From Shimia sp. (GTDB taxonomy: Bacteria > Pseudomonadota > Alphaproteobacteria > Rhodobacterales > Rhodobacteraceae), in assembly GCF_022448905.1 (NCBI RefSeq), contig NZ_JAKVCW010000005.1:62001-126000 (forward strand): a DNA stretch of 64,000 nucleotides, read 5' to 3'. Positions 10,075-54,128 of this stretch are shown piece after piece; the first letter of the stretch is position 1, and the number at the start of each line of letters is the position of its first letter. A program made the translations under genes and the position numbers. The notes beneath the pieces are model-generated. The model ran no database searches and was not told where the DNA came from. It saw only the letters and a list, made by a program, of their open reading frames with translations.

Positions 10075-10114
10075 GAGAGTTCCTCCCAGTTTCATGAACT
10101 GGAAACCAATTTAC

Positions 10115-10126: not shown

Positions 10127-10245
10127 AAAATTGCAACGGTGAAGAAAACGGCCTGCTTGTCACCATGATGCTTATGATTTATTAGGAAAAACGGGAGGAG
10201 CGCTGCGCAGATCGTGCAAAAACAAGAGAAAAGCACGACTCATTA

Positions 10246-10261
10246 ATCAAAGCGCTTTGAT
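10246..10261. promoter_or_regulatory. LacI-family operator abutting the regulator start codon
   Basis: A perfect 16-bp palindrome, ATCAAAGCGCTTTGAT, ends 2 nt before the ATG of the LacI-type gene. Binding there would block initiation and so give autorepression. Spaced about 131 bp from the first operator, which could allow looping. Confidence 0.75.
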
Positions 10262-10263
10262 AA

Positions 10264-11331: not shown

Positions 11332-11337
11332 AGACTG

Positions 11338-12663
11338 ATGCAGCACAAACGCTCCGATTTTCCTGATGGGTTTCAGTTTGGCGTGGCCACGTCGAGCTAT
11401 CAGATTGAGGGTCACAAATATGGCGGTGCCGGGCGCACGCACTGGGATGATTTTGCCGCCACGCCGGGCAATGTGGTGCGGGCTGAAAACGGCGCGTTGG
11501 GTTGTGATCATTACAATCGGCTTGAGGAAGACCTCGATCTGATTGCCGGTCTGGGCGTGGATGCTTATCGGTTCTCTACCAGTTGGGCGCGGGTGCTGCC
11601 GAAGGGGCGTGGCGCGGTCAATGAGGCGGGCCTCGATTTTTATGACCGGTTGGTGGACGGGCTGTTGGAACGCGGGATCAAACCGGCAGTGACACTGTAT
11701 CACTGGGAGATGCCCTCCGCGCTGGCCGATCTGGGCGGCTGGCGCAACCGCGATGTGGCGCAGTGGTTTGGCGATTTCACGGAAGTGGTGATGGGGCGGA
11801 TCGGAGACCGCGTTTGGTCGGTCGCGCCGATCAACGAGCCATGGTGTGTGGGCTGGCTCAGCCATTTTGTTGGGGCCCATGCGCCGGGTCTGCGCGACAT
11901 TCGTGCCACCGCGCGGGCGATGCACCACATCATGTTGGCGCATGGTACGGCGATCCAGCGAATGCGTGGCTTGGGTATGAAAAACCTCGGCGCGGTGTGT
12001 AACTTTGAATGGGCGACCCCGGCGAGTGACTCGCCGGAAGATGTCGCTGCCGCCGCGCGCTATGACGCGATTTACAATCGGTTTTTCCTCGGGGGGATTT
12101 TCAAAGGGGAATACCCGGAACTGGCTCTTGAGGGGCTGGAGCCGCATTTGCCAACCGGCTGGCAGGATGATTTCCCTGTGATCAGTTCCCCGGTCGATTG
12201 GAGCGGGCTCAACTATTACACGCGCACGCTGGTGCATGATGATGCCGCAGCTCCCTGGCCGCGGTATCGGCAGAGTGTGGGCGACTTGCCAAAAACCTCG
12301 ATGGGGTGGGAGATCTATCCCGATGCGTTGCGGGCGTTTTTGGTGCGCATGGCTCAGGAATACACTGGAAATTTGCCAATTTACGTGACTGAAAATGGCA
12401 TGTCGGCGCCAGATGAGATTGCGGATGGTGTGGTCGCGGACCCGCATCGGATATCCTATCTCAACAGCCATTTGGCGGCGGCGAAAGATGCGATTGACGC
12501 AGGTGTGCCTTTGGCGGGCTACTATGTGTGGTCTTTGATGGACAATTACGAGTGGGCGCTGGGCTATGAAAAGCGGTTTGGTCTGATCCACGTGGATTTT
12601 GACACGTTTGAGCGCACGCCGAAGCAATCTTACCATGCTCTGGCAGAGGCGCTGCGCTACTGA
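11338..12663 (+). CDS. GH1 family beta-glucosidase
   Basis: 441-aa cytoplasmic beta-glycosidase, normal family length. The GH1 signature is complete: N-terminal FPDGFQFGVATSSYQIEG, acid/base Glu167 in INEPW, and nucleophile Glu352 in VTENG. Closes the aglR transcript with only 6 nt between the genes. Co-regulation of a beta-glucosidase with an alpha-glucoside transporter suggests that the transporter has broad disaccharide specificity or that mixed glucosides are imported together (inference). No secretion signal. Confidence 0.93.
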   Translation: MQHKRSDFPDGFQFGVATSSYQIEGHKYGGAGRTHWDDFAATPGNVVRAENGALGCDHYNRLEEDLDLIAGLGVDAYRFSTSWARVLPKGRGAVNEAGLDFYDRLVDGLLERGIKPAVTLYHWEMPSALADLGGWRNRDVAQWFGDFTEVVMGRIGDRVWSVAPINEPWCVGWLSHFVGAHAPGLRDIRATARAMHHIMLAHGTAIQRMRGLGMKNLGAVCNFEWATPASDSPEDVAAAARYDAIYNRFFLGGIFKGEYPELALEGLEPHLPTGWQDDFPVISSPVDWSGLNYYTRTLVHDDAAAPWPRYRQSVGDLPKTSMGWEIYPDALRAFLVRMAQEYTGNLPIYVTENGMSAPDEIADGVVADPHRISYLNSHLAAAKDAIDAGVPLAGYYVWSLMDNYEWALGYEKRFGLIHVDFDTFERTPKQSYHALAEALRY

Positions 12664-18681: not shown

Positions 18682-19814
18682 TCTCGCAATCCAAACTTAT
18701 CGAATTCGGCCCAAACAGGGGCCATGTTGATCATTTTTCCGTCGATGCGCGCTTCATCGAGCGCCATCGCGACAAGGCCTGCCTCCAGCGCGTCAACCAC
18801 GCCAACCGGTAGGGTCTCGGTTTCGCCTCTTAGGAAGGCCACGATGTCGTCCACCATCATGTGGTCCGCGCCGTAGTGAGCCGAGGCCCGGGCGCTGTCC
18901 ATTTGGGTGTAATCGTGGTCGGCAATCACCGAGCCATCGCGTGCGGTGGCTTTCAGATAGCCGCGGACAAAGTCGCCTTCGGCCATGCCCAGAGCGCCCA
19001 TCACACAGAACCGGCGGTGCTCATCTGGCACGTTCAGGTTGGTGTGAAACGACAGGGAGGCGCCGCTCTCGTACTGCAAAATCGCGGTCTGATAGTCGAT
19101 GATGTCGCCGTCTGAGTGGAACGGGTCATCAATGCTCTGCCAGACGCTTTTCTTGCGGTGCATGATTTCGTTTTCGGTGTTTGAGGCGGGCGCAAACGCC
19201 GGAACAAATGATTTGCGCCCGCCAAAGCTCGCGACCTGGGAGGGACGCGATCTTGTCACCATGTTGTAAATATCGATGTCGTGGCAGCATTTCTCGAGCA
19301 TGAAGCCGCCGGACCACTGCACCATGCGCCGCCAGTCGCGCATGAAGAACGCGCCATGATAGGGAGCGATGTGCTCGTTGGCTTCCAGCGACGTGATCGG
19401 GCCAAGCTGATCCAGCACGCGGCGCAGATCGACCATATGCTGCGAATAGCGCAGCACTAGGCCGACCATAACGCTGTCGGTGCCATGCTCCGCCAGGAGC
19501 GCTGCCAGTTCCATGGTCTCCTCTTTGGTGGTGACCACAGGTTTCTCAGTAAAGATGCGCACGCCTGCAGCGAGGCCGATCTTGATATGCTCCAGATGGA
19601 AGCTGTTGGGCGAGCCGACAAAGAAGAGATCCGGCGCGGTTTCCGCCAGCATAGTCTCTACTGTGTCAAACTGGGGCACCTCGGTGCCGATCATGTCCAA
19701 ATGGGTGGGTTGCGGGTCATAGAACCCGACAAACTCCACCTCCGGCATGGCCTCCTTGAGGATGGAGAGCACATGCCCGGCCCGAAGACCTATGCCTGCT
19801 GTGACAACGCGCAT
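18678..19814 (-). CDS. Gfo/Idh/MocA family oxidoreductase in the amino-sugar operon
   Basis: 378-aa NAD(P)-dependent oxidoreductase. The N-terminal Rossmann fold has GIGLRAGHVLSIL and the dinucleotide-binding EKPVVT motif (TEKP, about residue 94). The C-terminal alpha/beta domain has GGFMLEKCCHDIDIYN, with the His-Asp pair used in catalysis by this family. Substrate unknown. Its place between the transporter ATPase and the SIS deaminases suggests oxidation or epimerisation of an imported amino sugar or derivative before deamination (inference). Confidence 0.85.
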   Translation of the reverse strand: MRVVTAGIGLRAGHVLSILKEAMPEVEFVGFYDPQPTHLDMIGTEVPQFDTVETMLAETAPDLFFVGSPNSFHLEHIKIGLAAGVRIFTEKPVVTTKEETMELAALLAEHGTDSVMVGLVLRYSQHMVDLRRVLDQLGPITSLEANEHIAPYHGAFFMRDWRRMVQWSGGFMLEKCCHDIDIYNMVTRSRPSQVASFGGRKSFVPAFAPASNTENEIMHRKKSVWQSIDDPFHSDGDIIDYQTAILQYESGASLSFHTNLNVPDEHRRFCVMGALGMAEGDFVRGYLKATARDGSVIADHDYTQMDSARASAHYGADHMMVDDIVAFLRGETETLPVGVVDALEAGLVAMALDEARIDGKMINMAPVWAEFDKFGLRE

Positions 19815-19823
19815 GGGAGGTCC

Positions 19824-20921
19824 TTACGCCACCAGAGCTGGCGCGGATTTGCGGCGCAGCACCTGACCATTTGATTGGAATACGTGGCAATCTTCTGGCG
19901 CCACGGACAGGCGCATGTTTTTGCCCTGCTGAATTGGTGCGTCACCGGACAGGGAGGCACAAAAGCGAGTGCCGTTGCCAATGGTACCGTAGGTGATCGA
20001 GACGCCGCCAAGGCGCTCCAGCACGTCTACAGTAATATCCAGACCTTCTTCGGCGAGGGTTACGTGCTCGGGGCGGATGCCCACTTCAACGGTGTCGCCT
20101 TTGGAAACGCCAGCGGTGTCCACGGGCAAGGACATGCGGTGGCCGCCTTCCAGTTCAACGGTCAGAGCGCCGGTGGTTTCCAGAACGGTGGCGGGCACAA
20201 AGTTCATGTTTGGCTGGCCGATAAAGCCCGCAACAAACTTGGTTGCAGGGTGGTGATAGAGTTCCATTGGCGTGCCGAACTGCTCAACCTGACCGCCGTT
20301 CAGAACCACAATGCGGTCCGCCATGGTCATGGCTTCGACCTGATCGTGGGTCACGTACACCATGGTGGCGTCGAGTTGGTTGTGCAGTTGGCTCAGTTCC
20401 ACGCGCATGTCGCCCCGCAGGGCAGCGTCGAGGTTGGAGAGCGGTTCGTCAAACAGGAAGACCTTCGGGTTGCGCACAATCGAGCGGCCGATGGCGACAC
20501 GCTGGCGCTGACCACCGGAGAGCTGGCTCGGCTTCAGATCGAGTTTTTCGGTGAGTTGCAGGATGTCGGCGGCGCGTTTCACGCGCGCGTCCATTTCGCC
20601 TTTTTCCATCTTCTGCACGCGCAGTGGGAAGGCAATGTTTTCGTAGACGCTCAGGTGTGGGTAGAGCGCGTAAGATTGGAACACCATGGAGATACCACGG
20701 TCCACTGGGGCTGCGTCGCTGACGTCTTCGCCGCCGATCACAATGGAGCCGGAGGTGGATTCTTCGAGGCCGGCGATGATGCGCAGCAAGGTTGATTTGC
20801 CGCAGCCGGATGGGCCTACGAAGACCACAAATTCTTTGTCCTCGATTGCCAGGCTGATGTCGTGCAACACCTTGGCCGAACCGAAGGACTTGTTGATAGC
20901 ATTCAGGTTGAGCGTCGCCAT
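19824..20921 (-). CDS. Amino-sugar ABC transporter ATP-binding subunit (UgpC/MsmK type)
   Basis: 365-aa ATPase with Walker A GPSGCGKST, LSGGQRQRVA signature, VFLFDEPLSNLD Walker B, YVTHDQVEAM switch and C-terminal TOBE-like domain. Similar to AglK in this window but with a different C-terminal regulatory part. Chosen ATG at 20921 begins MATLNLNAINKSFGS; in-frame codons further upstream are non-homologous. It follows the binding-protein gene after an 89-nt gap with a hairpin and precedes the oxidoreductase by 9 nt. Confidence 0.92.
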   Translation of the reverse strand: MATLNLNAINKSFGSAKVLHDISLAIEDKEFVVFVGPSGCGKSTLLRIIAGLEESTSGSIVIGGEDVSDAAPVDRGISMVFQSYALYPHLSVYENIAFPLRVQKMEKGEMDARVKRAADILQLTEKLDLKPSQLSGGQRQRVAIGRSIVRNPKVFLFDEPLSNLDAALRGDMRVELSQLHNQLDATMVYVTHDQVEAMTMADRIVVLNGGQVEQFGTPMELYHHPATKFVAGFIGQPNMNFVPATVLETTGALTVELEGGHRMSLPVDTAGVSKGDTVEVGIRPEHVTLAEEGLDITVDVLERLGGVSITYGTIGNGTRFCASLSGDAPIQQGKNMRLSVAPEDCHVFQSNGQVLRRKSAPALVA

Positions 20922-35393: not shown

Positions 35394-36686
35394 ATGACCC
35401 GGATTTTGATGCGCGGTGGAAAATCCCCGTTTCAATATATCTCTTACGAAGACACATTAGCTCGCAACAAATTGGGTACCAACAGCGGAAACCTGATTTT
35501 CGCGGAGTCGGTTTGGCGGACCCTGTCGACAAAAAACACGACTCTCCGCATGAACGGCTATTCGGCGAGGCCCAGCCGCGCGGCCGTCGTGAATTCGGAC
35601 TATGATGTGGTGGTGCTTCCGTTTGCCAATGCGTTTCGCACGTCCTTTTTGCCTCATCTGCGCAAATTTACCGATTTGGTAGAGCAGCTCAAAATTCCGG
35701 TTGTAGTCACTGGCGTGGGAGCGCAGGCTGGTTTGGATGCGACGCCTGAGGCAATTGCCGAAATGGGGCCAGATGTGGCTGCATTCTGTAAGGCAGTGTT
35801 GAAGCGTTCTGCCTCTATTGGGGTTCGGGGTGAGTACACCTATGAATTTCTGCGCAGCCTCGGATTTTCGGATGACGAAATCGATGTGATCGGATGTCCG
35901 TCGATGTTTTATCATGGCGCAAGTCTTCCGCAGATACAGACCCGCGAGGAGCTTTTGCCCTCTGATAAAGTCTCGATGAATGTCTCCCCTTATGTGAGAG
36001 GTATCAGCAAAATTTTTGAGCGGAACTATAAGCACTATGAAAAACTAGTGTATATTCCGCAAAATAATGAAAGCCTTGATCAAATACTATGGAATGGCGA
36101 GTTTTTGGAACAGCCTGGCAAGGTTTTTCCCAAGACCACAGACCACCCGATGTTTGAAGAGGATCGGCTGCGCATGTTCATAGACACCAAAACCTGGCTT
36201 GATCATTTGCGCAAATACGATTTTGTGTTTGGCACACGCATTCACGGCAATGTTATGGGCCTTCTAGCGGGCACGCCTTCCTTTGTTATGGCGCATGATA
36301 GCCGCACACTGGAACTAGCACGCTACTTCGAAATCCCACACAAACCGATGTCGGATATCTCTCCCAAGGTGCTGGCTTGCGAGCTTTATGCGGAAGCCGA
36401 TTACGGTCCATTGCAACGGAACCACGCGGCCCGCTTTGAAACCTGGTTGTCTTTCCTTGAGAAAAACAATTTGCGCCATGTCTATCAAGAAGGCGAGGAC
36501 AAAGGTGAAGCTTTCGAGAAAAAGTTGGCCCAGGCTCATTTCCCCGGTGAAATGCCCACCTTGCCTCACCAAACTGAAGCTCATCGGACCGAACGTTTGA
36601 AGTGGCAAGCCAATCAAACAAAGAAAAAACACCGTGGGCTGAAGACATACGTGAAACGAGTCACACAAGCGGTGCTAGGAAAATGA
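35394..36686 (+). CDS. Polysaccharide pyruvyl transferase family protein
   Basis: 430 aa. Resembles the CsaB/WcaK-type pyruvyl transferase family (PF04230) that adds ketal pyruvate to surface polysaccharides: RNKLGTNSGNLIFAESVWR near the N terminus, VVVTGVGAQAG in the middle and the characteristic FVFGTRIHGNVMGLLAGTPSF segment at about residues 280-300. ATG at 35394 chosen; a TTG two codons upstream is possible. The stop overlaps the next start by ATGA, so it belongs to one operon with the two genes that follow. Confidence 0.85.
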   Translation: MTRILMRGGKSPFQYISYEDTLARNKLGTNSGNLIFAESVWRTLSTKNTTLRMNGYSARPSRAAVVNSDYDVVVLPFANAFRTSFLPHLRKFTDLVEQLKIPVVVTGVGAQAGLDATPEAIAEMGPDVAAFCKAVLKRSASIGVRGEYTYEFLRSLGFSDDEIDVIGCPSMFYHGASLPQIQTREELLPSDKVSMNVSPYVRGISKIFERNYKHYEKLVYIPQNNESLDQILWNGEFLEQPGKVFPKTTDHPMFEEDRLRMFIDTKTWLDHLRKYDFVFGTRIHGNVMGLLAGTPSFVMAHDSRTLELARYFEIPHKPMSDISPKVLACELYAEADYGPLQRNHAARFETWLSFLEKNNLRHVYQEGEDKGEAFEKKLAQAHFPGEMPTLPHQTEAHRTERLKWQANQTKKKHRGLKTYVKRVTQAVLGK

Positions 36687-38038
36687 GCGAATCTGCCTTC
36701 ATCATTCTTGCTGGCGGTTCTGGGACGCGCTTCCGGTCGGAAAAGCCAAAACAGTTGGCCATGTTGGCGGGAAAGACGATTTTGCAGCACACGTTGGAAA
36801 ACGTCGCGGCCTGCGAAAACGTGAAGCAGATCATTTTGGTCAGCCGCGGAACAATCCTGGACGAAGCGAAGAAAATTGTCTCCGATATTGCGCATCCTTC
36901 GATCAAAATTGTTGAAGGTGGATCAAATCGTCTGGAATCCACCCGAGCGGGTTTGCAGGCAGTTGAAGGCCCAGCCGAAACCAAGGTTCTGGTGCATGAC
37001 GGCGTGCGCCCATTCATCAAGCACGACGTAATCAACGCCTGTTACAGTGGCTTGGATATTTACGATGCTGTGGACGTGGTGATCCCGTCCGCGGATACGT
37101 TGGTTGAAGTGGATCCGGGTGCCATAGATCTGATTGGGCGGATTCCCCGTCGCGAAGCCTTTCGTCGGGGACAGACACCGCAAGGTTTTTGGCTCGGAAA
37201 ACTGCGTGACGTGATCGACGAGGTGCCGGATCTGGCCGCGGCAACGTTTACTGATGATTGCGGCATGTATCTGGCGGCCCGCCCGCAGGCAAAGATCGGT
37301 TTGATTGACGGGGATGAAAGCAACATCAAAATCACCCATCCGATTGATCTGTTCATGGCAGAGCAACTGATCATGACCGGTCAAACCGGGGCTCAGGCGC
37401 GTGCTTCTAACGTGGACGTCTCGGCGATGAATATCGTGATCTTTGGCGCCAGTTCCGGTCTGGGTGAAGATGCGAAGATCTACCTTGAGAACCTTGGAGC
37501 CACTGTTCACGGCGCATCGCGCAGTGCAGGCTGTGACATTTCAAGGGCCGATGATGTGGCCGCGACGCTAGAAGCTGCCGCGGCGAAAGGGCCAATCGAT
37601 GCGGTCATCAATTTTGCGGGTGTGCTACACATCGGAAAACTGGCGGAGATCGATCCAAACGATCTGGAGCGGGTTGTGCAGACCAATTATATGGGGGCGC
37701 TAAATATCGCGCGCCTGTCTTATGACTTCTTAAAGGCGTCCAAAGGCCAGTTGATGCTGGTGTCTTCGTCATCCTATTATCGTGGCCGTAAAGACTACGC
37801 TGTCTATTCTTCTTCCAAAGCCGCAGTGGTCAACCTGACACAGGCGCTGTGTGAGGAATGGGCACCAGACGATGTGCGGGTGAATTGTATCGTGCCGCGA
37901 CGGGCAAATACGCCTATGCGCCACGCGGCCTTCCCCGGGGAAGATCCAAGCACTTTGTTGCAGCCGAAAGAGGTGTCTTTGCAAGTGCTCAAGTTGCTGA
38001 AGTCGCCGGATTCCGGAATAATAAATCATGTTTATTAA
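36683..38038 (+). CDS. Bifunctional ribitol-5-phosphate cytidylyltransferase / SDR reductase (Bcs1/TarI-TarJ-like)
   Basis: 451-aa fusion. The N-terminal nucleotidyltransferase (about 1-230) of the IspD/TarI type has IILAGGSGTRFRSEKPKQL, LVHDGVRPF and RGQTPQGFW. The C-terminal short-chain dehydrogenase (about 250-450) has the cofactor motif IFGASSGLG, catalytic Ser in LVSSSSYYRG and YAVYSSSKAA with the Tyr-x-x-x-Lys pattern. Such fusions (H. influenzae Bcs1) reduce ribulose-5-P and make CDP-ribitol for capsule. Coupled by ATGA upstream and overlapping the next gene by 11 nt. Confidence 0.88.
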   Translation: MSESAFIILAGGSGTRFRSEKPKQLAMLAGKTILQHTLENVAACENVKQIILVSRGTILDEAKKIVSDIAHPSIKIVEGGSNRLESTRAGLQAVEGPAETKVLVHDGVRPFIKHDVINACYSGLDIYDAVDVVIPSADTLVEVDPGAIDLIGRIPRREAFRRGQTPQGFWLGKLRDVIDEVPDLAAATFTDDCGMYLAARPQAKIGLIDGDESNIKITHPIDLFMAEQLIMTGQTGAQARASNVDVSAMNIVIFGASSGLGEDAKIYLENLGATVHGASRSAGCDISRADDVAATLEAAAAKGPIDAVINFAGVLHIGKLAEIDPNDLERVVQTNYMGALNIARLSYDFLKASKGQLMLVSSSSYYRGRKDYAVYSSSKAAVVNLTQALCEEWAPDDVRVNCIVPRRANTPMRHAAFPGEDPSTLLQPKEVSLQVLKLLKSPDSGIINHVY

Positions 38039-43212: not shown

Positions 43213-43377
43213 GATGGTCTCCTGTGTTGTCCGTTTGTGATATGCGCCTTTTCCCACAGGCCAACTGACACGGGCTGTCAGTTGGATTAGGCGTTAAGCG
43301 CGTTTTCTGGCATTATTTGCAAAACGCCCTAAATGGTGTATCTGCACCGCTTGAATTCCCAGATGAGTCACAGAGCC

Positions 43378-44571
<1,194 letters not shown>

Positions 44572-44822
44572 ACAAGCACCGTTCGGCAAGCCGCCGTAAC
44601 AGCAAGTAGTGCCGCTGATTGAGACGGTGCGGCAGATCGAATGCGACCGTGCCCAAACGAGATTTCCCAGGCAGTTCCAAAAACTCTGCCGACGGGCCCC
44701 GAAGTATTGACTTGACCGGAAAATTTGGAGATGTGTCTGTGAAAATTGGCGCTACTCGCAAGATCTTTCTAGAATCCAGTAATAAAGTGGCCATGTAAAT
44801 AAACTGCACTGTAACATTAGAA

Positions 44823-47438
44823 ATGAATTCCATGCCCAAAAAATCTGCTAAAAAGACTGTTGCGAGAAAATATTTCAAAGGCTTGCCAGCGGCCACTCGA
44901 GCAGTGATCCGGAGCAAGTTTCGGGGAGCAGTGAAGCGACTTGGGATGGGGCGCTCGGCAACCGCTACGTATTGGCAACTAGAGAAACTGCCGAGGCCCA
45001 TTTTGCCCTATCTCCGGTCCAGCAAAGCTGCCGCGGAAAGTGGCGATTGGGCGCGTGCAGATGAGATTTTGCGCGACGCCAAAGCGAAGTTCCCAGATGA
45101 CGATGCCTTGTCGGAAGCCTATTGCCGTTTGGCATTGAAGACAAAGCGCTCGGGTGACGTGGTTCAACGGTGGGAATTGATTGAGAATGGGAAATGTCTT
45201 GTCAGTTCGCGACTGCAGATTTCTGTAGCAGATGTGTTTGTGCAGATAGGCAACTTAGAGAAAGCGGATGCCCTCTTGGCGGAGCAACGTATAGCTAAAC
45301 CTCACAATGAGAGGTTGCTTCGCGTCGAAGGTCTTCTGGCAGAAGCTAAAAAGGATTGGTTGTCTGCTGCGGAAACATGGTTTTTACGCGGTGAAAAAGC
45401 AAGAGGCAAAGCAAGGATAAACAGCTACGTCAGAGGTGTTCGCGCGCTCATCAATGCTGGTGCTCTAGACCAGGCCGAAGAAAAAGCGCAGGCTTTGGTG
45501 AGGAAGTATCCAAGACAAATGCCCTTGCTAAAGCTGCATGCGGAAGTCGCAATTGCCTCTGATGCTTGGGCTGTTGCGCTTGAGCGTTGGAAAAATCTTG
45601 AGTTGCGGCACCCCGGTAAAGCCGGCTCAATGCCATCTGAGTGGGTCTTCCGAATTGGGGTGGATGACGCCCGTGAACGTACTGCCGCGATTAGTATCGA
45701 TCGGCTACGTGCCACAGGCATGCTTACGCTGGCAACAACCATACAGCCAGTGGACGAAGTCGGTGCCCTCACGCTTGGACGTCACGCCAAAAAATTCTAT
45801 TCCGAGAATGTCCAGGTGATGACGGCAGAAATACTATTTGCGAATAGTCGCCACTCGGCGGCAATTTGGTGGGCGCGCCGGCTTATAGACACATCAAAAC
45901 GGCCAAAAGAACACTACCCTCTCCTGATCGAAGCCCTCATAAAGGCCTCGCGCCTTGAAGAGTGTGAAGACGCGTTGGCTGTTTATGAAGCGGAATACGG
46001 AAGAAACTCCCTCTGGTTGAGAGGGATGGTCGAGATTCATTATCGGCGCGGTGATTTCTCTGCCATGCGCGATGTTATGCAGTTCGCAGTTACAAATAAT
46101 CTGCCGATACCCGCCAAGCGGACGCCTGTCATGCGTTGGCTTTATGATTTGGTTTACTATCATCCCACTCCTGCTTCATTTCTGCCAACCGAAATCCATA
46201 GTCTCGTTTTGCGAACGACCACTATGTATGATGGCAAGTTTTTGTCGGACTCGCTGGGTTTGATGTTCGATCCCAGTCGCGGTGATGCCGCTGTGGATCG
46301 GTATAAACAAATGATTGCCCAAAATGCCTCTGGTGATCTGGAGATTGACCCTGTTCAGCGCGAAGAAATATTACGGTTCTTTATTCGCCGGCGTGAATGG
46401 GAACAGGTTAAGGCACTTCTTGATCTCCCTTTGACGCTAGAACTTGATGCCACTTCCGCAAAAAAGATCTGGAACGTTGTTCGCAGCAATATAGATACCC
46501 GTCTGGGAGACGCCGACGTTGCCGGGGCCGAAGCTATTGCGGTGAAATTCTTGGACCAGCTGTCTGAGGCCCAACTCGATAGTTACGCCATGTCACTGAC
46601 GCATTTTTTGCTCGCTCGGCTCCCTACATCCGAGGCTCTTACCAGTCGGCTCTTGGATGTTGCGCAGCGTGTAGGGTATGCGCAAATGGGCGCGCGTATT
46701 TCAGATTGGCAACAACGTTATGTCGGCTTTGACACAAACTCGATTGTGAACACTGCAGAACGTAAGCGTTGCTTTATCGTTGGGAATGGCCCGTCGATAT
46801 CCGAAATGCCCCTAGACGCCCTGGCCGGCGAAGATATCTTTTGCGTGAACCGCGGCATGCGTGCGCTTGACATCGGCTTGCCGAATCCGAGGTATTTGGT
46901 TGTGGCAGATCCGCTGGTTTATAAAAACCATGCACGAGAAATCGATGCTGATGGTGCATCGGTTGAGAAGTACTTTTTGGCCACAAATTGTCTCTGGCGT
47001 AGGCCGCCGAGCGTACCTGTTATTCCCGTCGGATCGTCAGGTAAGAAATTGTCGCTGGTTCCCTTCCGACATGCGTCATTGCATTTGCATCGTGGTAATT
47101 CCGTTGTGGTAATGGCAGCACAAATCGCACATTTGATGGGGTACAAAGAAATCTACATCATCGGTGTTGACCTGGATTATTCTGGTGCAACGACCCATTT
47201 CTACGGTGGAGGGGGCAAGGAAACGGAGCGACTGGACCATTTCCGTCCAGGGGGTTCGGGAACTGAGTTGGTGAATCTTGCTTTTGCGAACCTACAGGAT
47301 GTTATCGCTGAAGACGGTTGTCGACTTTACAACGCTGCGCCCGGAGGCAAGCTCGACATGATTGAGCGTGTGGATTTCTATGATGTTCTTGGTTTGCCAA
47401 AGCCTGACACGACCGATGAAAAAAATGCCGTCGCGTAA
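44823..47438 (+). CDS. TPR-containing MptE-like / GT42-sialyltransferase-like protein
   Basis: 871 aa. An N-terminal basic stretch is followed by helical TPR-like repeats (about 60-620; for example SGDWARADEILRDAKAKFPDD, GALDQAEEKAQALVRKYPRQ). The C-terminal domain (about 648-855) has CFIVGNGPSISEMP, then GNSVVVMAAQIAHLMGYKEIYIIGVDLDYS and a FYGGGG segment. This pattern matches DUF115/MptE-like proteins and also the nucleotide-binding layout of GT42 sialyltransferases (GNGPSL; ALGYKEIYLSGIDFY). With NeuB- and NeuA-like genes downstream, transfer of a nonulosonic acid onto a glycan or flagellin is plausible (inference). A second ATG is 9 nt downstream. Confidence 0.75.
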   Translation: MNSMPKKSAKKTVARKYFKGLPAATRAVIRSKFRGAVKRLGMGRSATATYWQLEKLPRPILPYLRSSKAAAESGDWARADEILRDAKAKFPDDDALSEAYCRLALKTKRSGDVVQRWELIENGKCLVSSRLQISVADVFVQIGNLEKADALLAEQRIAKPHNERLLRVEGLLAEAKKDWLSAAETWFLRGEKARGKARINSYVRGVRALINAGALDQAEEKAQALVRKYPRQMPLLKLHAEVAIASDAWAVALERWKNLELRHPGKAGSMPSEWVFRIGVDDARERTAAISIDRLRATGMLTLATTIQPVDEVGALTLGRHAKKFYSENVQVMTAEILFANSRHSAAIWWARRLIDTSKRPKEHYPLLIEALIKASRLEECEDALAVYEAEYGRNSLWLRGMVEIHYRRGDFSAMRDVMQFAVTNNLPIPAKRTPVMRWLYDLVYYHPTPASFLPTEIHSLVLRTTTMYDGKFLSDSLGLMFDPSRGDAAVDRYKQMIAQNASGDLEIDPVQREEILRFFIRRREWEQVKALLDLPLTLELDATSAKKIWNVVRSNIDTRLGDADVAGAEAIAVKFLDQLSEAQLDSYAMSLTHFLLARLPTSEALTSRLLDVAQRVGYAQMGARISDWQQRYVGFDTNSIVNTAERKRCFIVGNGPSISEMPLDALAGEDIFCVNRGMRALDIGLPNPRYLVVADPLVYKNHAREIDADGASVEKYFLATNCLWRRPPSVPVIPVGSSGKKLSLVPFRHASLHLHRGNSVVVMAAQIAHLMGYKEIYIIGVDLDYSGATTHFYGGGGKETERLDHFRPGGSGTELVNLAFANLQDVIAEDGCRLYNAAPGGKLDMIERVDFYDVLGLPKPDTTDEKNAVA

Positions 47439-48150
47439 GCGCGGTGGCATAAAACACCCTGAAGTAATTGGACGCCAAGCTTCTTTGGACGGCCGAATAA
47501 CGGGCGCTTAAGAGACCCTTGTTGTTTTCTTTTGTCAGGCGCCAATGTCTATGGATCGCTTAAGAAGGAGCAAAGGTAAGCCGCGCAATAGTGGGAAGGC
47601 CAGCGACCCAGAGATTTTGGTCTGCCGCCCGAAAAGGGGGCTATCAGGACAAATTCGAGCTGGGCGTCTCGAGGCTAGGTAAACTCAAAGACGCTGCCAA
47701 CATTGCGGCCTGTGTCAGGAATGGCTGCAGGCTGCTTGGTTCTAGTCAATGCGTTATGCTTGGACCAAAACGCTGTGAAGGCCAAGCCAGTCATGCACCT
47801 ACACTCAAACTTAACCAATTAACCTGAGCTGTTCGTTGCGAAAACTTGGTTTGACGATCCCTCAATTATGGGGGTATTTGATGGTTCAAAGCGTCCGTGC
47901 TGATCAAGAGTGATTTGGCACGAGACTATATCGAAATCAAATTGAGCCGCGAGCGCAAGAAAATAATACACTACGTCAGCCTTTGTCTCGAAGAGGCGAA
48001 AAGTGAAATGGAAGTTACTGTTTTAAAAGCCTCTAAGGCTAAACCAAAGATAGTCGCCACATGTTTAACGTCGGCCCAGAAGGTACACGGCTTTACTAGA
48101 GCGGGGCGACTTTCACAGTCTAGACTTTCGACCCAATTAGGACCACGACA
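47439..48150. other. Long intergenic region in the nonulosonic-acid island
   Basis: About 710 nt without a recognisable gene. Short open frames (47591-47827, 47897-48154) have no recognisable motifs and no good ribosome-binding sites. No transposase or phage remnant is evident. It may hold the promoter for the phosphatase-NeuB-fusion operon or be a decayed gene. Confidence 0.4.
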
Positions 48151-48906
48151 ATGACTGAAATGTCTACCACCAGTTTTGGTGATGCCCCTCCCGATCTAGC
48201 AGCTACACGCGCACTGATGCATGGATTGATTGATTTGATAGCAGCCAACATGGAGCATATCCTGGCCAAACGCTATGATATCACTCTAAAACCTGACAAC
48301 AGCCCTGTGACGGCAGCCGATGTATTCTTGGAAGATCTGATCCAAAAATACTTGGTTGACCGCATTCCTGGCGTCACATTTGCGGGCGAGGAGACTTTCA
48401 GTGCTGACACGCCATTGGCGAGCGAAGGGTATTATGCCATTCTTGACCCTATCGACGGCACAGAAAACTTCTGTTCTGGCCTCAAGGAATGGGGTGTTTC
48501 GTTTACGTTGTGGCATGGCGGAACTCACTTAGGCAGTATGCTTTTGATGCCAGAACTTGGCGAACACCTTATGACAGGTGACTCGTTGCTTCCGATCCGG
48601 TCACGGATCCGTGGGTTCTCCTCATCAATGTGCGATGAGATTTTTGAAGGCATGGGCTCAAGCCAAGAGAACCGTGTTACCGGGTGTGCAGTTTATAATC
48701 TTTATAATGTAGTGCGTGGAGCATTCGCCCGCTTTACCAATCCCAAGGGGGCATACTCTTGGGATCTTTTGCCGGGGCTTATGCTTGCCCTAGAACATAA
48801 CTGTGAAATCGAAGTAGAGGGCAAATCATATCATGGGGAATTTCTTGAACCGGGTAAGAAGTATCGCGTCGACATTCAGCACCGATACGATCTTCATTCT
48901 GGGTAA
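48151..48906 (+). CDS. Inositol-monophosphatase family phosphatase
   Basis: 251-aa Mg-dependent phosphatase. Metal ligands are visible in order: AGEET, LDPIDGTENF, and the C-terminal YSWDLLPG. Closer in context to sugar-phosphate or nucleotide-sugar phosphatases than to housekeeping IMPases, since it overlaps the NeuB-fusion gene by 74 nt; dephosphorylation of a nonulosonic-acid 9-phosphate or precursor is a possible role (inference). ATG 48151; a second at 48160 is possible. Confidence 0.88.
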   Translation: MTEMSTTSFGDAPPDLAATRALMHGLIDLIAANMEHILAKRYDITLKPDNSPVTAADVFLEDLIQKYLVDRIPGVTFAGEETFSADTPLASEGYYAILDPIDGTENFCSGLKEWGVSFTLWHGGTHLGSMLLMPELGEHLMTGDSLLPIRSRIRGFSSSMCDEIFEGMGSSQENRVTGCAVYNLYNVVRGAFARFTNPKGAYSWDLLPGLMLALEHNCEIEVEGKSYHGEFLEPGKKYRVDIQHRYDLHSG

Positions 48907-50374
48907 AGGAGCGTCGATCGACGAAATTGATCCGGAAATTTTAGTTGGGGCTTTGGTCATTGGGGTCAATGATTCAGAGCGAATTGCCCCCTGTGATATC
49001 ACGGTGTTTCATGATTCATGGGTGCATCAAGCTCTAGAGGAAAGCGGCTGGCGCTCGCGCCTCTATGTAACGTCAACAGATCTGGATCCGCCCCGTGGAG
49101 AGGTGGAAAGGGTGCGGTATGTCGCCGGCTCTCAAGACGGCAGCGACATGATGATGACTCGGCTGGTTTCTGACAATCCTGACAGTGAGTTTGTCATTGA
49201 GGATGTGCTGTTTTTGTCAGCGCTGAGATTGGCGCGGATCATTGCCCAAATTCGCGGAAAGACACAAAAAGTCTATATGCTCGGCTTTGATTTTTCCGCG
49301 GACCAAGGCTACTCCGCGGCCATTGGCAAGGATTACTCATTAAACAGCACAGATGATCGTGCCTTTATCATCGCGCCGCAGGAATACTACTTTATTAATG
49401 CGCTCTACATGCTTCGCGAGAGCGAGCTGGACATACATCACGTCGGCAAACGTCGCTTTTCAAGCTTGTCTGGCTCCGAGTTGAATGCCCAGCTTATTCC
49501 AGAAAAGAAGGGTACTTCCGAGCGTGCGCATCAAGGTGTCTTGATTACAGCTGAATTGACAACCAATCACTTTGGCGATCGGCAACGGTTGGAGCGCATG
49601 GTGCGTGCCGCCAAGGCTGCAGGTGCTGATTTTGTAAAAGTTCAGAAGCGCGACGTCGAAACATTCTATTCCAAAGAACAGTTGGATGCCAAATATGTCT
49701 CGCCGTTTGGGGACACGTTTCGGGATTACCGCAATCAGCTAGAGCTAAGTCAGAGTGACTTTGAATTCCTGGATCAGCTATGCAAAAGCTTGGGGGTACG
49801 TTGGTTTGCATCTGTGCTAGACCAGCCGTCGTTTGAGTTCATGATGCAGTTCAACCCAGAGCTGGTCAAATTGCCGTCAACCATCTCTGAACACACAGAT
49901 TACTTAGCTTATGTGGCCAAAAACTATCGTGCTGGGATCGTTTTATCGACGGGAATGACCGATACAACTTATGAAAATTGGGTGATAGAGACCTTCACTG
50001 ATTGCGAAAAGCTGTACCTCATGCAGTGCAACTCTGCTTACCCAACGCCACAGCACGATTGCAACATTGGCGTAATCCGTCACTACCGGGATCTCTCGCT
50101 GAAACACCCCCATCTGGCACCAGCCTATTCTAGCCATGATTTTGGATGGATGCCTTCTGGAATGGCGGTCGCTGCTGGGGCAGTCATGGTGGAAAAACAC
50201 GTGAAGCTGGGCAACACCGAATGGGCGCACTTTGACGCCGTTGCTCTTGATCTCGCGACCTCAGAATTCCGTGAATTCGTAGCAAAAATTCGTGAAGTTG
50301 AAGTGGTTGTCGGGTCTGAAGAGAAAAAGGTGAACGAAAGCGAGCACCACAAGTATTTTCGGGGCACCGCCTGA
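48833..50374 (+). CDS. MptE/GT42-like domain fused to a NeuB-type nonulosonic acid synthase
   Basis: 513 aa. The N-terminal domain (about 17-200) starts TIFILGKGASIDEIDPEI and has VYMLGFDFSADQGYS, which parallels the C-terminal domain of the 44823 protein. The C-terminal part (about 235-490) is a NeuB aldolase-type barrel: ITAELTTNHFGD, FVKVQKRDVETFYSKEQL, VLSTGMTD, YLMQCNSAYPTPQHD and GAVMVEKHVKL. It condenses PEP with an N-acetylhexosamine to give a sialic or legionaminic-type acid. The usual C-terminal SAF domain is absent: the protein ends shortly after the barrel. The 5' end lies 74 nt inside the phosphatase gene; no later start covers the first domain. Confidence 0.85.
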   Translation: MGNFLNRVRSIASTFSTDTIFILGKGASIDEIDPEILVGALVIGVNDSERIAPCDITVFHDSWVHQALEESGWRSRLYVTSTDLDPPRGEVERVRYVAGSQDGSDMMMTRLVSDNPDSEFVIEDVLFLSALRLARIIAQIRGKTQKVYMLGFDFSADQGYSAAIGKDYSLNSTDDRAFIIAPQEYYFINALYMLRESELDIHHVGKRRFSSLSGSELNAQLIPEKKGTSERAHQGVLITAELTTNHFGDRQRLERMVRAAKAAGADFVKVQKRDVETFYSKEQLDAKYVSPFGDTFRDYRNQLELSQSDFEFLDQLCKSLGVRWFASVLDQPSFEFMMQFNPELVKLPSTISEHTDYLAYVAKNYRAGIVLSTGMTDTTYENWVIETFTDCEKLYLMQCNSAYPTPQHDCNIGVIRHYRDLSLKHPHLAPAYSSHDFGWMPSGMAVAAGAVMVEKHVKLGNTEWAHFDAVALDLATSEFREFVAKIREVEVVVGSEEKKVNESEHHKYFRGTA

Positions 50375-50387
50375 CTAAATAAAATGC

Positions 50388-50420
50388 ACCGCATGTCATA
50401 GAATCTATGACATGCGGTTT
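50388..50420. terminator. Bidirectional terminator between convergent NeuB-fusion and NeuA-like genes
   Basis: A 15-nt perfect inverted repeat, ACCGCATGTCATAGA / TCTATGACATGCGGT, around one central base, followed by TTTCT on the plus strand and by TTTTAT on the minus strand. It serves both converging genes. Confidence 0.8.
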
Positions 50421-50518
50421 CTAAAGATTTGTCGCGCATGCAGGGACAGGGGGCATAGATGTCCGCTGTTCCATATGTTTAACGGCGGCGCAAATCGGAG
50501 CAGTGCAATATTCCGATC

Positions 50519-51229
50519 CTAGAGTAGGCTGTCACCCCGTTGCACCTTGGCCAGCGCGATATCTTCCAGCAAGTGAAACTGTTCTTCCCAGTCGATATCC
50601 ATCGTTACGCGTTCGGGTAATTCGTGCAAGCAAGGGTTGGTGCCGATACGGTCACCAACGGCGCGCATACGGGCAAACGGCATTAGGTAGGCGGCGTGAT
50701 TGATTTCAAACAACGGTTTGATGTCCTGGCTGCGCGGCCATTTTTCAACGGTATTGTCGTAATTATAGGGCCCATTTTCATCCCAGATGAATTTGTGGAG
50801 CTTTGTCACGGTAACAAGGCTGTCATGCCCCTCTGCCTCAGCCCTGCGCCAGGCCTCAATCAGATCACTAAACACAGTTGCGGTCACGAAAGGATGGGTA
50901 ACATGGGTCATCAGTTGAACTCCCTCTTCGGAAAGAGTCGCAGAGTATTTGATATATTCACTCATCGGAGTAGATGACCGGCCAAGCTCATCCGGGCGTT
51001 CTAGTGCGACAAATCGGCTGTCTACATTACGACCAAAAGCGGCAGTGTAATCAAGAATAGCGGGATCGTTGCTAGATACGATGACCTTTTCGACCTCCTT
51101 GACGCCTTTCAACTGGTTCAGTTTCAACTCCAAGAGACCGCCTGGGATATCTGCAAAAGGGCGCGTGTTTTTGTGTTTTACACGCTCACTTCCAGCGCGG
51201 GCGGGGATAACGGCGATGATGGGGTCCAT
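50519..51229 (-). CDS. neuA: Acylneuraminate (nonulosonic acid) cytidylyltransferase
   Basis: 236 aa. The CMP-sialic acid synthetase P-loop-like motif IPARAGSERVKHKNTRPF opens the protein; VTHPFVTATVF and the later MDIDWEEQFHLLEDI with the metal-binding Asp fit the family. It would activate the NeuB product as a CMP sugar. Chosen ATG at 51229 gives MDPIIAVIPARAGS; the TTG 30 nt earlier is less likely. Convergent with the NeuB fusion, sharing one terminator. The IS3 element inserted 105 bp upstream of its start. Confidence 0.88.
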   Translation of the reverse strand: MDPIIAVIPARAGSERVKHKNTRPFADIPGGLLELKLNQLKGVKEVEKVIVSSNDPAILDYTAAFGRNVDSRFVALERPDELGRSSTPMSEYIKYSATLSEEGVQLMTHVTHPFVTATVFSDLIEAWRRAEAEGHDSLVTVTKLHKFIWDENGPYNYDNTVEKWPRSQDIKPLFEINHAAYLMPFARMRAVGDRIGTNPCLHELPERVTMDIDWEEQFHLLEDIALAKVQRGDSLL

Positions 51230-51330
51230 GGGAGCTTTCTTGGTTTGAGTTGCGTGCAAGCTTTTTGGAGATTTCTTGCTTTTGAGATCGTTTCATAGAC
51301 TATCAGACATCCTTTGATTTTAAAGCCTTA

Positions 51331-51333
51331 GAA
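51331..51333. repeat. 3-bp target site duplication, left copy (GAA)
   Basis: GAA directly precedes the left inverted repeat; the same GAA (52565-52567) directly follows the right inverted repeat. 3-bp duplication is typical of IS3-family insertion. Confidence 0.75.
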
Positions 51334-51361
51334 TGGACCTGTCACGTTTTCGTGCCGCCCC
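51334..51361. repeat. IS3 left inverted repeat
   Basis: Begins TGGACCTGTCACGTTTTCG; matches the reverse complement of 52537-52564 at 23 of 28 positions. Confidence 0.85.
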
Positions 51362-51371
51362 AAGTGCTCGT

Positions 51372-52229
51372 TTAGGCCACTTTCCGTTCGAATGCGACAG
51401 GGCTTTTCCAGCCCAATGCTGAGTGCCGCCGGCGCGGATTGTAGAAGCCGTTGATGTATTCGAAGATCGCCATCTCAGCTTTGCGTCTTGTTTCCCAAGG
51501 ATGTCGCCAGATCAGTTCTGCCTTGATGGTTTTGAAGAAGGTCTCAACAGCCGCATTTTCGTAGCAATTGCCTTTGCCAGACATCGATATTTTGAACCCA
51601 TGTTGACGCAGTAGCTTCTGGTAGTCGTGTGAACAATATTGCGACCCACGATCCGTGTGATGAATGCAACCATTGGGCGGTTGCCGGAACGCGATGGCCA
51701 TCTTCAATGCTCGGATTGCCAGGTCACGTTTCATCCGATTGCTCACCGCCCAGCCGATCACACGCCTTGAATGAAGGTCCAGGATCACTGCCAGATAAAT
51801 CCAACCCTCGCGTGTCCAGACATAGCTGATGTCACCGGCCCATTTCTGGTTTGGTGCATCTGCCACGAAGTCACGATCCACCAGATTGGGCGCAATGTTG
51901 AACTTGTGATCGCTATCCGTTGTCACCTTGTGTTTGCGGGTTCTGACCACTGATATGCCGTTTTGGCGCATCAGACGACCAACACGACGATGGCCAACAT
52001 CCAGGCCGATCTCTTTCAGCTCTTCCGTCATGCGTGGTCGACCATAGCTGCCCAAACTAAGACGGGATTGCTCTTTAATATGGGCCAACGTGATCAAATC
52101 CGACCGCTGTCTGCGGCTGGCTGGACGGCTGCGGAACGCACGCAAACCACGTGAACTGACGCCAACAACCTCACACAACCGATTGGCTGGAAAGCTGGAC
52201 CTGTGTTCTTCGACAAACCTAAATCTCAT
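51372..52229 (-). CDS. IS3 family transposase OrfB (DDE integrase core)
   Basis: 285 aa. HTH_21-like N terminus (SLGSYGRPRMTEELKEIG), then an rve integrase core with the DDE triad: Asp in WAGDISYVW, Asp in HHTDRGSQY and Glu in NCYENAAVETFFK. It overlaps the OrfA stop by ATGA and lies in the -1 frame, so the active transposase is made by frameshifting at an A-AAA-AAG heptamer in orfA or by coupled initiation. Confidence 0.93.
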   Translation of the reverse strand: MRFRFVEEHRSSFPANRLCEVVGVSSRGLRAFRSRPASRRQRSDLITLAHIKEQSRLSLGSYGRPRMTEELKEIGLDVGHRRVGRLMRQNGISVVRTRKHKVTTDSDHKFNIAPNLVDRDFVADAPNQKWAGDISYVWTREGWIYLAVILDLHSRRVIGWAVSNRMKRDLAIRALKMAIAFRQPPNGCIHHTDRGSQYCSHDYQKLLRQHGFKISMSGKGNCYENAAVETFFKTIKAELIWRHPWETRRKAEMAIFEYINGFYNPRRRHSALGWKSPVAFERKVA

Positions 52230-52501
52230 TGCTTTAGGCCCGCAAAGAACTGGGTGGCCTTTTTTAGAATTTCCCTCTCCTCCTTGAGGAGCTTGATCTC
52301 GCGCCGAAGTCGGTCATTTTCTTTGGCGAGATCTAAATCTTCTTTCGACACCACATCAGTGTCTCGATGCGCGGCGATCCATTTGTTCAGCGTCGACATC
52401 CCGACACCCAGATCGTCAGCCACTTGCTTGCGCTTAAGCCCACTTGTCAGCGCGATACGCACCGCATCAGCGCGGAATTCGTCCGTCCGTTTCAGTCGCA
52501 T
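52226..52501 (-). CDS. IS3 family transposase OrfA (HTH protein)
   Basis: 91 aa. The helix-turn-helix is EFRADAVRIALTSG...QVADDLGVGMSTLNKWIAAH, followed by a leucine-zipper-like coiled coil (KENDRLRREIKLLKEEREIL). A slippery heptamer A-AAA-AAG in the codons for Leu-Lys-Lys (plus-strand 52259-52265) is correctly phased for a -1 shift into orfB, and the shifted frame is open to the orfB start. Confidence 0.93.
   Translation of the reverse strand: MRLKRTDEFRADAVRIALTSGLKRKQVADDLGVGMSTLNKWIAAHRDTDVVSKEDLDLAKENDRLRREIKLLKEEREILKKATQFFAGLKQ
52259..52265 (-). promoter_or_regulatory. Programmed -1 frameshift heptamer in orfA
   Basis: Minus-strand A-AAA-AAG in phase with orfA; after a -1 slip the frame continues without a stop into the orfB start codon. 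This is the classical IS3 mechanism for making OrfAB. Confidence 0.75.
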
Positions 52502-52536
52502 AGTCAGTCTCCTTTGTTGCAGTAAATGCTATCAAA

Positions 52537-52564
52537 GGAGCGGCATCAAACCGCGACAGGTCCA
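52537..52564. repeat. IS3 right inverted repeat
   Basis: Ends with CGCGACAGGTCCA; reverse complement begins TGGACCTGTCGCG as in the left repeat. Confidence 0.85.
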
Positions 52565-53429
52565 GAAGGTTTCGATTACGCCTGAATCGCCTAAATATAT
52601 TACGTCGGTTTGAGTTGAACACGATAGAGCGCCCTGGGCGCCCCACGACAAAGAACTGCCCTTTTCACAACAATGCGTTGATGCAGCGCGGTTCCCTGTT
52701 GAATTGTTTGGCCCTGAAGTGTCCCACCTTTGCGGATAGTCTCTATTATTTAGCTAAAGTGCGTCGGGTTTAGAGCCGGGATTCATAACCAGAACATGAC
52801 CGATGGTGCTCAAGCGCCGGCTGAAGGGAGGACTTTTGAGCGCCTGTGGCAGGGTTTCGTGTCATGCAACCAACCCTTGGGGTGGGCAAAGAAACGCTCG
52901 ATTTCTTGGCGTTTATTGTGCCGGGCCACGTCATAAAGGCTTAGTGCCGTGAGGTCTTCGCAAATAGGGGTGCTGGACGCAATGCCTCTGTCTTTAAGCG
53001 CTTCACATGGCTAGCCCGGGTTATATACTCGATCCGCCAGCATGTTTTTGGCGTCTGGCAGATCGCGCGACCCGGTCCTGTCTGGGAACGGACATTGCCC
53101 CCTACCTCACTGAAGGACTTCTGGCTGTCCGATAAATATAGGACATCGTGGCGACTGCAGCCAAGATCAAGAAACACAGCTCTGCACAAATACTCAAACT
53201 CTGTGTGATTGGAAGCGGAGAATGAGTTGTTCAGGCGAGTGGTTTGGGCGCTGACACAGGGCGATCGAATCTTCAGCAAACATCTGAGCTCCGCTCTTCA
53301 TCGCTATTGAAACGTACCGGTGCGAGTTGTTTTGACAAAACAGGCAAAGCGCCATCCTGAAGGCTGGCTAGCAAATCGGTCGAAGTCCGGCGTATCCGTG
53401 TTTCTTACGGTACACGCGGGAGACATCAG
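52565..53429. other. Gene-poor scar between the IS3 element and the Crp/Fnr gene
   Basis: About 865 nt. Part holds a decayed IS5-type transposase end (52810-53091); the rest shows no intact gene. A TGTTTT-GAC-AAAACA inverted repeat (53328-53342) lies about 90 nt before the Crp/Fnr start and includes a TTGACA; it could be a promoter element or regulator site. Confidence 0.5.
52810..53091 (-). pseudogene. Remnant of an IS5-type transposase C-terminus with in-frame stop
   Basis: The minus-strand frame reads ...SRDLPDAKNMLADRVYNPG, then a TAG stop, then CEALKDRGIASSTPICED and HNKRQEIERFFAHPKGW. The order LPDAK-xx-L-x-DR-x-Y, then EALKDRGI, then KR-x-x-IE-R-x-F-x-x-x-KGW corresponds to the last third of IS5/IS427-type transposases, where DR and the E of IE belong to the DDE site. 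One stop codon interrupts it and no N-terminal half is found, so it is a decayed fragment. Confidence 0.6.
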
Positions 53430-54128
53430 ATGCAGGCAGAATACAAAGCCGTTGCGCGGCAATCGCTGCTGTTTAGCAGCATGCCCGAAGAAGACGCGGA
53501 GATGCTGCTGTCGACGGCGCATGTCTCAGAATACGAACGCGGACAGACCATTTTTCTGCAAGGCGAGACGGCCACTGCCATTTTTATCGTGATATCCGGG
53601 TGGGCCAAACTCTACCGGATCGCGCCCAGCGGAACAGAGGCGGTTGTTGGCGTTTTCACAAAAGGGCGTAGCTTTGGCGAAGCTGTTGCGTTTCAAGGGG
53701 ATGCGTATCCGGTGTCAGCTGAAGCGGTGACCTCTCTCAAGTTAATGCGCATCGAAACCGACGCTTACTTGCGCCGTATCCGAGAAACGCCTGAGGCTGC
53801 ACTTTCATTGTTGTCTTCCACCTTTCGCCATCTGCACAGTCTAGTGGCGCAAATTGAAGCGCTCAAAGCGCGAATCAGTGCGCAGCGTGTGGCGGAATTT
53901 CTTTGTGAATTAAGCAATGCTGAGGAAGGGGCCTGCGAGGTCGTTCTGCCTTATGACAAGATCCTGATTGCGGGGCGTTTGGGCATGAAACCGGAAAGCC
54001 TCAGCCGGGCCTTCGCCAAGTTGAAGGCCGAGGGGGTCCAGATAAAGCAGAACCGCGCCAATATTGATGACATCGAACACTTGCGCACGTACAGCGAAGA
54101 AGACCCCGCGCAGGCTTGGGCGCGCTAA
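53430..54128 (+). CDS. Crp/Fnr family transcriptional regulator
   Basis: 232 aa. N-terminal cyclic-nucleotide-binding fold (about 10-125) with ERGQTIFLQGETATAIFIVISGWAKLYR and GRSFGEAVAFQGD, then a dimer helix and a C-terminal HTH (SAQRVAEFLCELSNA, GRLGMKPESLSRAFAKLKAEGV). It lacks an Fnr-type N-terminal cysteine cluster and so is closer to DNR/NnrR-type regulators; heme or NO sensing would be a guess. GGGAG lies 7 nt before the ATG at 53430. Confidence 0.88.
   Translation: MQAEYKAVARQSLLFSSMPEEDAEMLLSTAHVSEYERGQTIFLQGETATAIFIVISGWAKLYRIAPSGTEAVVGVFTKGRSFGEAVAFQGDAYPVSAEAVTSLKLMRIETDAYLRRIRETPEAALSLLSSTFRHLHSLVAQIEALKARISAQRVAEFLCELSNAEEGACEVVLPYDKILIAGRLGMKPESLSRAFAKLKAEGVQIKQNRANIDDIEHLRTYSEEDPAQAWAR

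Follow-up and report, generated by a model that had tools for sequence, protein, structure and literature searches.

The window analysed here is a 64,000-nucleotide stretch of a Shimia sp. genome (NCBI RefSeq assembly GCF_022448905.1, contig NZ_JAKVCW010000005.1, positions 62,001 to 126,000), and it contains an acquired island of 8.9 kb (44567..53429), located between the rlmN gene (43333-44571; identified by TIGR00048 with 392.9 bits against 290) and a gene for a Crp-like regulator (53430-54128). The island has a GC content of 0.51 (0.58 elsewhere in the window) and is missing from all five relatives compared, chosen among the 24 other genomes of the genus search; in these five, approximately 50-115 bases separate rlmN from the Crp-like gene (three relatives) or from the sequence past that gene (two). 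A transposase with an integrase core and HTH_21 according to Pfam, which we take to be of the IS3 type, is encoded inside the island on the reverse strand (51372..52229). On the forward strand are found an 871-aa protein in which Pfam recognises TPR and MptE-like domains (44823..47438), an inositol-monophosphatase-family phosphatase of 251 aa identified by its ORF and by Pfam (48151..48906) and, starting within the last 74 bases of the phosphatase gene, the 513-aa MptE-like/NeuB fusion protein that is the subject of this analysis (48833..50374). A gene for a CMP-sugar-synthetase-type cytidylyltransferase faces the fusion from the reverse strand (50519..51259; 246 aa if translation starts at a TTG, 236 aa if it starts at the ATG at 51229). 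The overlapping phosphatase and the facing cytidylyltransferase genes, not mentioned in the first-pass annotation of the fusion, are the ones that tell most about function. The TPR-MptE protein is a candidate protein or glycan transferase of an activated sugar, and both Paracoccus, with two copies, and Brevundimonas encode relatives of it close to their fusions (L004, L039). Between this protein and the phosphatase lie approximately 700 bases (47439-48150) with no frame longer than 85 aa.

The fusion gene is an intact forward-strand frame from ATG to TGA, and its layout was defined with an alignment (A1) of 43 rows, comprising the window fusion and 42 intact relatives. An N-terminal MptE/DUF115-like domain occupies residues ~17-217 (48881..49483), as delimited by A1, profile and AlphaFold/Foldseek, and is followed by a linker of residues 218-235 (49484..49537), unconserved by column identity, a NeuB TIM barrel of residues ~236-498 (49538..50326), recognised by Pfam, a PDB match and Foldseek, and a C-terminal SEHHKY motif at residues 503-508 (50339..50356), all on the forward strand. 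Mean column identity in A1 is 0.63 for the N-terminal domain, 0.29 for the linker and 0.78 for the barrel, with 26/201, 0/18 and 95/273 invariant columns, respectively. The invariant residues of the N-terminal domain include G24, K25, G26, S28, N46, D47 and D153. In the tail, E504-Y508 is invariant in 43/43 rows, the motif is followed by 0-19 residues in every row and represents the very C-terminal end in 11 of them, and EHHKY is also present in four fusions from E. coli/Enterobacter and in one from a further genome, G331 (see below). The full-length AlphaFold model (mean pLDDT 83.9, pTM 0.67) gives no domain packing, while the N-terminal domain modelled alone reached a mean pLDDT of 91.1 and a pTM of 0.90. 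The first-pass annotation had described an MptE-like domain fused to NeuB, and both the intact frame and the 42 intact relatives carrying both halves bear this description out; judged from its sequence, the fusion is a real, conserved and uncharacterised architecture of a predicted synthase.

The barrel, described as complete in the same annotation, is indeed so, as the Pfam NeuB profile (PF03102) was covered from position 1 to 241 of 241, aligning to residues 256-498 with 154.5 bits (cut-off 22.1). The scores obtained with the more specific equivalog models were far below their cut-offs, both for N-acetylneuraminate synthase (TIGR03569; 136.9 versus 399.65) and for pseudaminic acid synthase (TIGR03586; 115 versus 340.25). 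A sequence search of the PDB matched the barrel alone, with PseI (8h2c) as first match, and Foldseek on the full model was concordant. PMC6795526 gives 12 barrel residues surrounding the NeuB active site, together with Arg314, a residue of the SAF domain that contacts ManNAc. When these were mapped by eye on an alignment with N. meningitidis NeuB, seven of the 12 were found to be identical in the fusion (Glu25, Gln55, Lys129, Tyr186, Ser213, His215 and Glu234), Thr110 is replaced by Ser, three differ (Asn74 to Pro, Phe112 to Leu, Asn184 to Ser), Phe288 was unaligned and Arg314 was missing. With seven of these residues kept and pocket residues altered, the catalytic outfit thus appears largely kept and the sugar pocket changed, and both the scores and the pocket of the window fusion speak against Neu5Ac as its likely product. 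Compared to the NeuB, LegI and PseI synthases (PF03102), the fusion shares a complete barrel, seven of the 12 listed barrel residues and, as best solved match, PseI 8h2c, but differs from them in the absence of SAF, the presence of an N-terminal MptE-like domain, the EHHKY end and scores far under those that the NCBIfam models require of a Neu5Ac synthase or of PseI.

The protein had also been described as ending soon after the barrel without a SAF domain, and neither Pfam nor a search downstream of the gene found one. Within the 513 aa, NeuB was the sole Pfam family above cut-off, whereas the other NeuB of the same genome (L001), used as control, showed both NeuB and SAF; the C-terminal SAF with its Arg that characterises two-domain NeuB proteins is thus lacking in the fusion. 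A SAF profile made from 10 NeuB tails recovered 9/9 held-out tails and identified no SAF-like sequence in six frames within 600 bases past the stop of 48/48 fusion genes (best E 0.86), so that no SAF is concealed by a false stop. None of the reference-genome relatives encodes the N-terminal domain and the barrel apart, since 43/43 match across both halves, and the two genomes of the phylum search that have the N-terminal domain carry it in frames of 518 and 529 aa. That a sequencing error joined two genes here, or that a false stop removed SAF, is therefore an explanation to which we assign practically no weight: 42 intact relatives share the architecture and its end, the downstream search was negative in all 48 genes with all nine positive controls recovered, and the artefact readings were dropped. 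The absence of SAF alone is not new, since it is also observed in stand-alone NeuB proteins (L024, L029, L128 and others; PDB chain 6ncs_A, of 290 residues), which like the fusion have a barrel that ends without SAF, but lack the N-terminal domain and fall outside the fusion clade in the barrel tree. Fourteen stand-alone NeuB proteins with fewer than 30 residues past the barrel were collected, most of them chosen for their short frames, and Pfam reported NeuB without SAF in 12/12 of those scanned (L132 and L133 were left out). Given that such proteins exist, a missing SAF is no evidence in itself that another domain replaced it; that the N-terminal domain sits where SAF would be is something that we only infer.

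The same fusion was searched for in other genomes, as the first-pass annotation had proposed, and was found at 43 reference-genome loci, in four E. coli/Enterobacter sequences and in G331. The reference-genome loci belong to four phyla, all align over both halves and 42 of them are intact, with an identity of 52-71% to the window fusion among these 42 relatives. Their hosts are Proteobacteria (mostly Alphaproteobacteria, but also Halomonas, Pectobacterium and an Aquabacterium MAG), Actinobacteria (Nesterenkonia, Garicola, Demequina), a Deinococcales MAG and a cyanobacterial MAG. At the remaining locus (L042, Nesterenkonia pannonica, ~10000-11520), which was left out of A1, the fusion gene is split over several frames and represents either a pseudogene or the result of sequencing errors. 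Plasmid records yielded three more fusions with more than 80% coverage and ~44% identity, two from E. coli and one from Enterobacter; one of these three records, KE47, measures 4.9 Mb, looks like a chromosome and is unannotated here. A search of E. coli with the plasmid gene returned 4/5426 genomes, namely three near-identical plasmid copies and the chromosome of ET350 (L055; 44% identity to the window fusion), and the four E. coli/Enterobacter fusions taken together are 43-44% identical to that of the window. In the genus of the window, the fusion is present in one of 25 genomes, and 17 others match the barrel only, in frames of 343-435 aa. The N-terminal domain was detected in 2/398 genomes of the phylum search, in frames of 518 and 529 aa, the second of these genomes being G331, where the fusion is 42% identical and has a phosphatase gene alongside. 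Among viral contigs, 11 stretches matched the search pattern and none encodes a relative of the fusion; two phage records match the barrel only.

A tree was built from 48 barrels, of which 14 were fused (of those available), 15 short and 19 SAF-bearing. The 14 fusion barrels form one clade (support 100/100), in which the window fusion is placed beside that of Halomonas (97/92). Three actinobacterial rows are nested within proteobacterial ones (88/91, a branch that is not firm), suggesting horizontal transfer. Short proteins without SAF are distributed over several other branches, and long branches meet in this tree, for instance where two short proteins join the fusion clade. Two stand-alone SAF-less NeuB genes encoding ~300 aa, present in addition to the fusion at L024 (Demequina, 19382-20278) and L029 (Nesterenkonia, 8132-9031), belong to another branch of the tree. 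A different architecture was observed in L131 (G086, 1381-2982), where a NeuB frame encodes 534 aa: ~190 residues precede the barrel, and the tail is as long as a SAF domain. No description of the fusion was found in the open-licence PMC literature at the level of titles and abstract beginnings, PMC7591256 included, and we consider the fusion with an MptE-like domain, its conserved tail and its frequent phosphatase as new with respect to the literature searched.

The N-terminal domain lies beneath Pfam detection: the MptE-like family (PF01973) gave no match in 38/38 fusion members at E<=1, and the G331 relative reached E 0.017, under the cut-off. Its kinship was assessed with hhalign, comparing an N-terminal profile (A4, 29 rows) with 620 proteins of the fusion loci, including the MptE-like domain of the TPR protein at 44823. 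The top match was a piece of the broken L042 fusion; the 44823 domain came next (92%), ahead of the complete 44823 protein (88%), L018_2266 (81%), L023_5421 (59%) and L005_10475 (43%), the 99th percentile being 21.9%. Pfam places the L023 and L005 proteins in the MptE-like family above cut-off, and the L018 protein weakly. On the other side, low values (23, 15 and 9%) were obtained for proteins of L039 and L004 that are closely related to the 44823 protein, and a larger MptE profile (A3) scored 75%, aligned across 34 columns only. Foldseek searches with the model of the domain returned 17 BFVD matches at E<=0.001, most of them unnamed or uncharacterised, and none in the PDB at this threshold; one of the 17 is a phage protein named MptE-like (E 9.3e-5), and a DUF115 protein of BFVD follows outside the threshold (E 4.3e-3). 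By profile-profile and predicted-fold kinship, the N-terminal domain is thus assigned to the MptE-like superfamily, and the relationship to the transferase-like domain of the 44823 protein proposed in the first-pass annotation is supported by the hhalign value of 92% and the MptE-like match in BFVD. Like the MptE-like/DUF115 proteins (PF01973), of which the 44823 TPR protein is an example, it has a GxGPS-type loop and a GxD strand, but it differs from them in lying below Pfam detection and in being fused to a synthase.

The same domain had also been labelled GT42-like, and here the evidence is less favourable. GT42 sialyltransferases (PF06002) share with it a GNGPS-like loop and a GIDF-like strand (by eye), but the hhalign match was 40% with one sequence and 33% with a 3-row profile, a comparison that is the weaker one as the GT42 set consisted of three sequences; moreover, the histidine of the GT42 KHS motif has no counterpart in the domain, where xQE is found instead (by eye). 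GT42 was consequently ranked under MptE-like as nearest kin. The MptE-like superfamily includes flagellin glycosyltransferases, and an active glycosyltransferase that uses the CMP-sugar of the cassette, so that synthesis and transfer are combined in one chain, would agree with the MptE-like kinship and with the conserved glycine-rich loop. We nevertheless consider this improbable, given the xQE in place of the KHS histidine and the GT42 profile value of 33%; besides, a single conserved domain is found across E. coli capsule loci and Actinobacteria, where the acceptors would be expected to differ, a distribution that would suit an acceptor-specific enzyme badly, and the CMP-sugar would have to come from a third protein. 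Of the two roles suggested earlier for this domain, sensing or transfer, the latter has thus become less likely, owing to the weak GT42 match and the missing KHS motif; a sensing role may hold.

A regulatory or capping role is favoured over transfer, on the basis of the lost histidine (by eye) and of the conservation of the domain. The domain might instead be purely structural, stabilising an oligomer or closing the active site as SAF does, without binding any ligand. This is doubtful in our opinion: it would fit the absence of SAF in the relatives examined, the unconserved linker and the single clade formed by the 14 fused barrels tested, but the 26 invariant columns out of 201, loop residues included, exceed what a spacer would seem to need, and SAF-less stand-alone NeuB proteins manage without such a domain. 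More speculative, and in our view unlikely as a whole, is a specific form of the regulatory reading, according to which the place of SAF was taken by a relative of CMP-sugar transferases that has lost its catalytic activity, senses the CMP-sugar end product and shuts the barrel; this cross-phylum family would serve to make a new sugar of capsules or glycoproteins, starting from a sugar phosphate of central metabolism.

The genes surrounding the fusion were counted with a six-frame profile search over 48 loci (43 genome loci, four from E. coli/Enterobacter and the window; G331 was kept outside). The phosphatase was present in 39/48 loci and the cytidylyltransferase in 37/48 within the stretch searched, several kb off or on the opposite strand in some of them; in the other 11 it was not seen in this stretch. 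All nine genome loci in which the phosphatase was missing belong to Nesterenkonia or Garicola, where its gene may be located elsewhere or may not be needed. Of the 34 genome loci having it, 32 have a phosphatase frame that reaches into the fusion gene; the shared stretch measures 3 bases in L021 and 55-130 bases in the other 31, counts that derive from gene calls placing the start of the window fusion too late (49112). The phosphatase lies further upstream in L028 and L039, and the overlap as annotated is 4 bases in L053, L054 and L055. The motifs DP[ILV]DGT and WD are present in 35/35 phosphatases of the set, and GEE in 32/35; the enzyme could act on another sugar phosphate. As the fused enzyme recurs in distantly related bacteria, in most cases close to genes for a phosphatase and a sugar-activating enzyme, the pathway looks real, mobile and uncharacterised to date.

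The fusions at L053, L054 and L055 adjoin annotated polysaccharide-export and ABC transporter genes, and L054 and L055 also contain capsule synthesis genes, confirmed in L055 by Pfam (Capsule_synth). A Pfam scan of 118 of 143 selected neighbours returned 84 families, the commonest being those of glycosyltransferases, methyltransferases and nucleotide-sugar genes; Epimerase_2 and DegT, families associated with acylated precursors, were not among the 25 commonest of the 84 families in these 118 neighbours. The polysialyltransferase family PF07388 was matched by 2/118 neighbours. Further observations concern single loci: near a Nesterenkonia fusion, L030:9021-10598 encodes a 526-aa cytidylyltransferase with two CTP_transf_3 stretches, with which frames of L032 and L045 cluster; an HMGL-like aldolase (L003:8326-9276) is located upstream of the Halomonas phosphatase gene; and the ET350 chromosome of E. 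coli (L055) carries at 36647-37500, near the capsule locus and past an integrase, a gene with the annotation zorE (type II Zorya defence).

On the basis of these data we propose, with moderate confidence, that the fusion acts as the synthase that condenses PEP in a compact and mobile cassette making a CMP-activated ulosonic acid for surface glycans, and that its N-terminal domain would regulate or cap the barrel. The barrel would condense PEP with a sugar phosphate of central metabolism, the inositol-phosphatase-family enzyme encoded by the overlapping gene would take the phosphate off, and the cytidylyltransferase would produce the CMP-sugar. As a first guess the route would run from Man-6-P through Kdn-9-P and Kdn to CMP-Kdn, although a pentose phosphate substrate would also be possible. 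The N-terminal domain is probably no transferase; a nucleotide or nucleotide-sugar is its more likely ligand, and together with the EHHKY motif the domain would regulate or cap the barrel where an ordinary NeuB uses SAF. The CMP-sugar would be used by transferases specific to each locus, perhaps the TPR-MptE protein in the window and capsule enzymes in E. coli.

The Man-6-P guess is based on the layout of the Kdn route in Bacteroides thetaiotaomicron and Prymnesium parvum, which according to PMC6200933 consists of a Kdn-9-P synthase acting on Man-6-P, a phosphatase and a CMP-Kdn synthetase, with the phosphatase gene of P. parvum reported there as not found. The same set of synthase, phosphatase and CMP-synthetase genes is found together in the window. 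The cassette differs from this route in its inositol-monophosphatase-family phosphatase and in its fused synthase. To our knowledge, the known Man-6-P enzymes carry SAF, and the absence of SAF consequently does not select a phosphorylated substrate. The order of the steps cannot be read from the genes, nor is it settled by the overlap of phosphatase and fusion. The barrel might thus condense a free sugar, as most bacterial NeuB proteins do, with the phosphatase first freeing it from the sugar phosphate. Non-phosphorylated sugars are used by many bacteria, as PMC6200933 states, and nine genome loci have no phosphatase; the changes in the sugar pocket and the lack of Arg314 (by eye) count against a ManNAc-type substrate, but not against every free sugar. 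We regard this order of steps as a tentative alternative, less probable than the condensation of a sugar phosphate.

At present, three of the E. coli/Enterobacter relatives bear no annotation more specific than "N-acetylneuraminate synthase family protein". If the proposed reading is true, a cassette of Proteobacteria, Actinobacteria and cyanobacterial and Deinococcales MAGs would yield an unrecognised acidic sugar, which would also be made by capsule loci of E. coli, both on a plasmid (L054) and on the chromosome (L055). DAHP synthases, which are related to the NeuB barrel, carry fused regulatory domains, and the control of a NeuB barrel by the N-terminal domain described here would represent a parallel to them.
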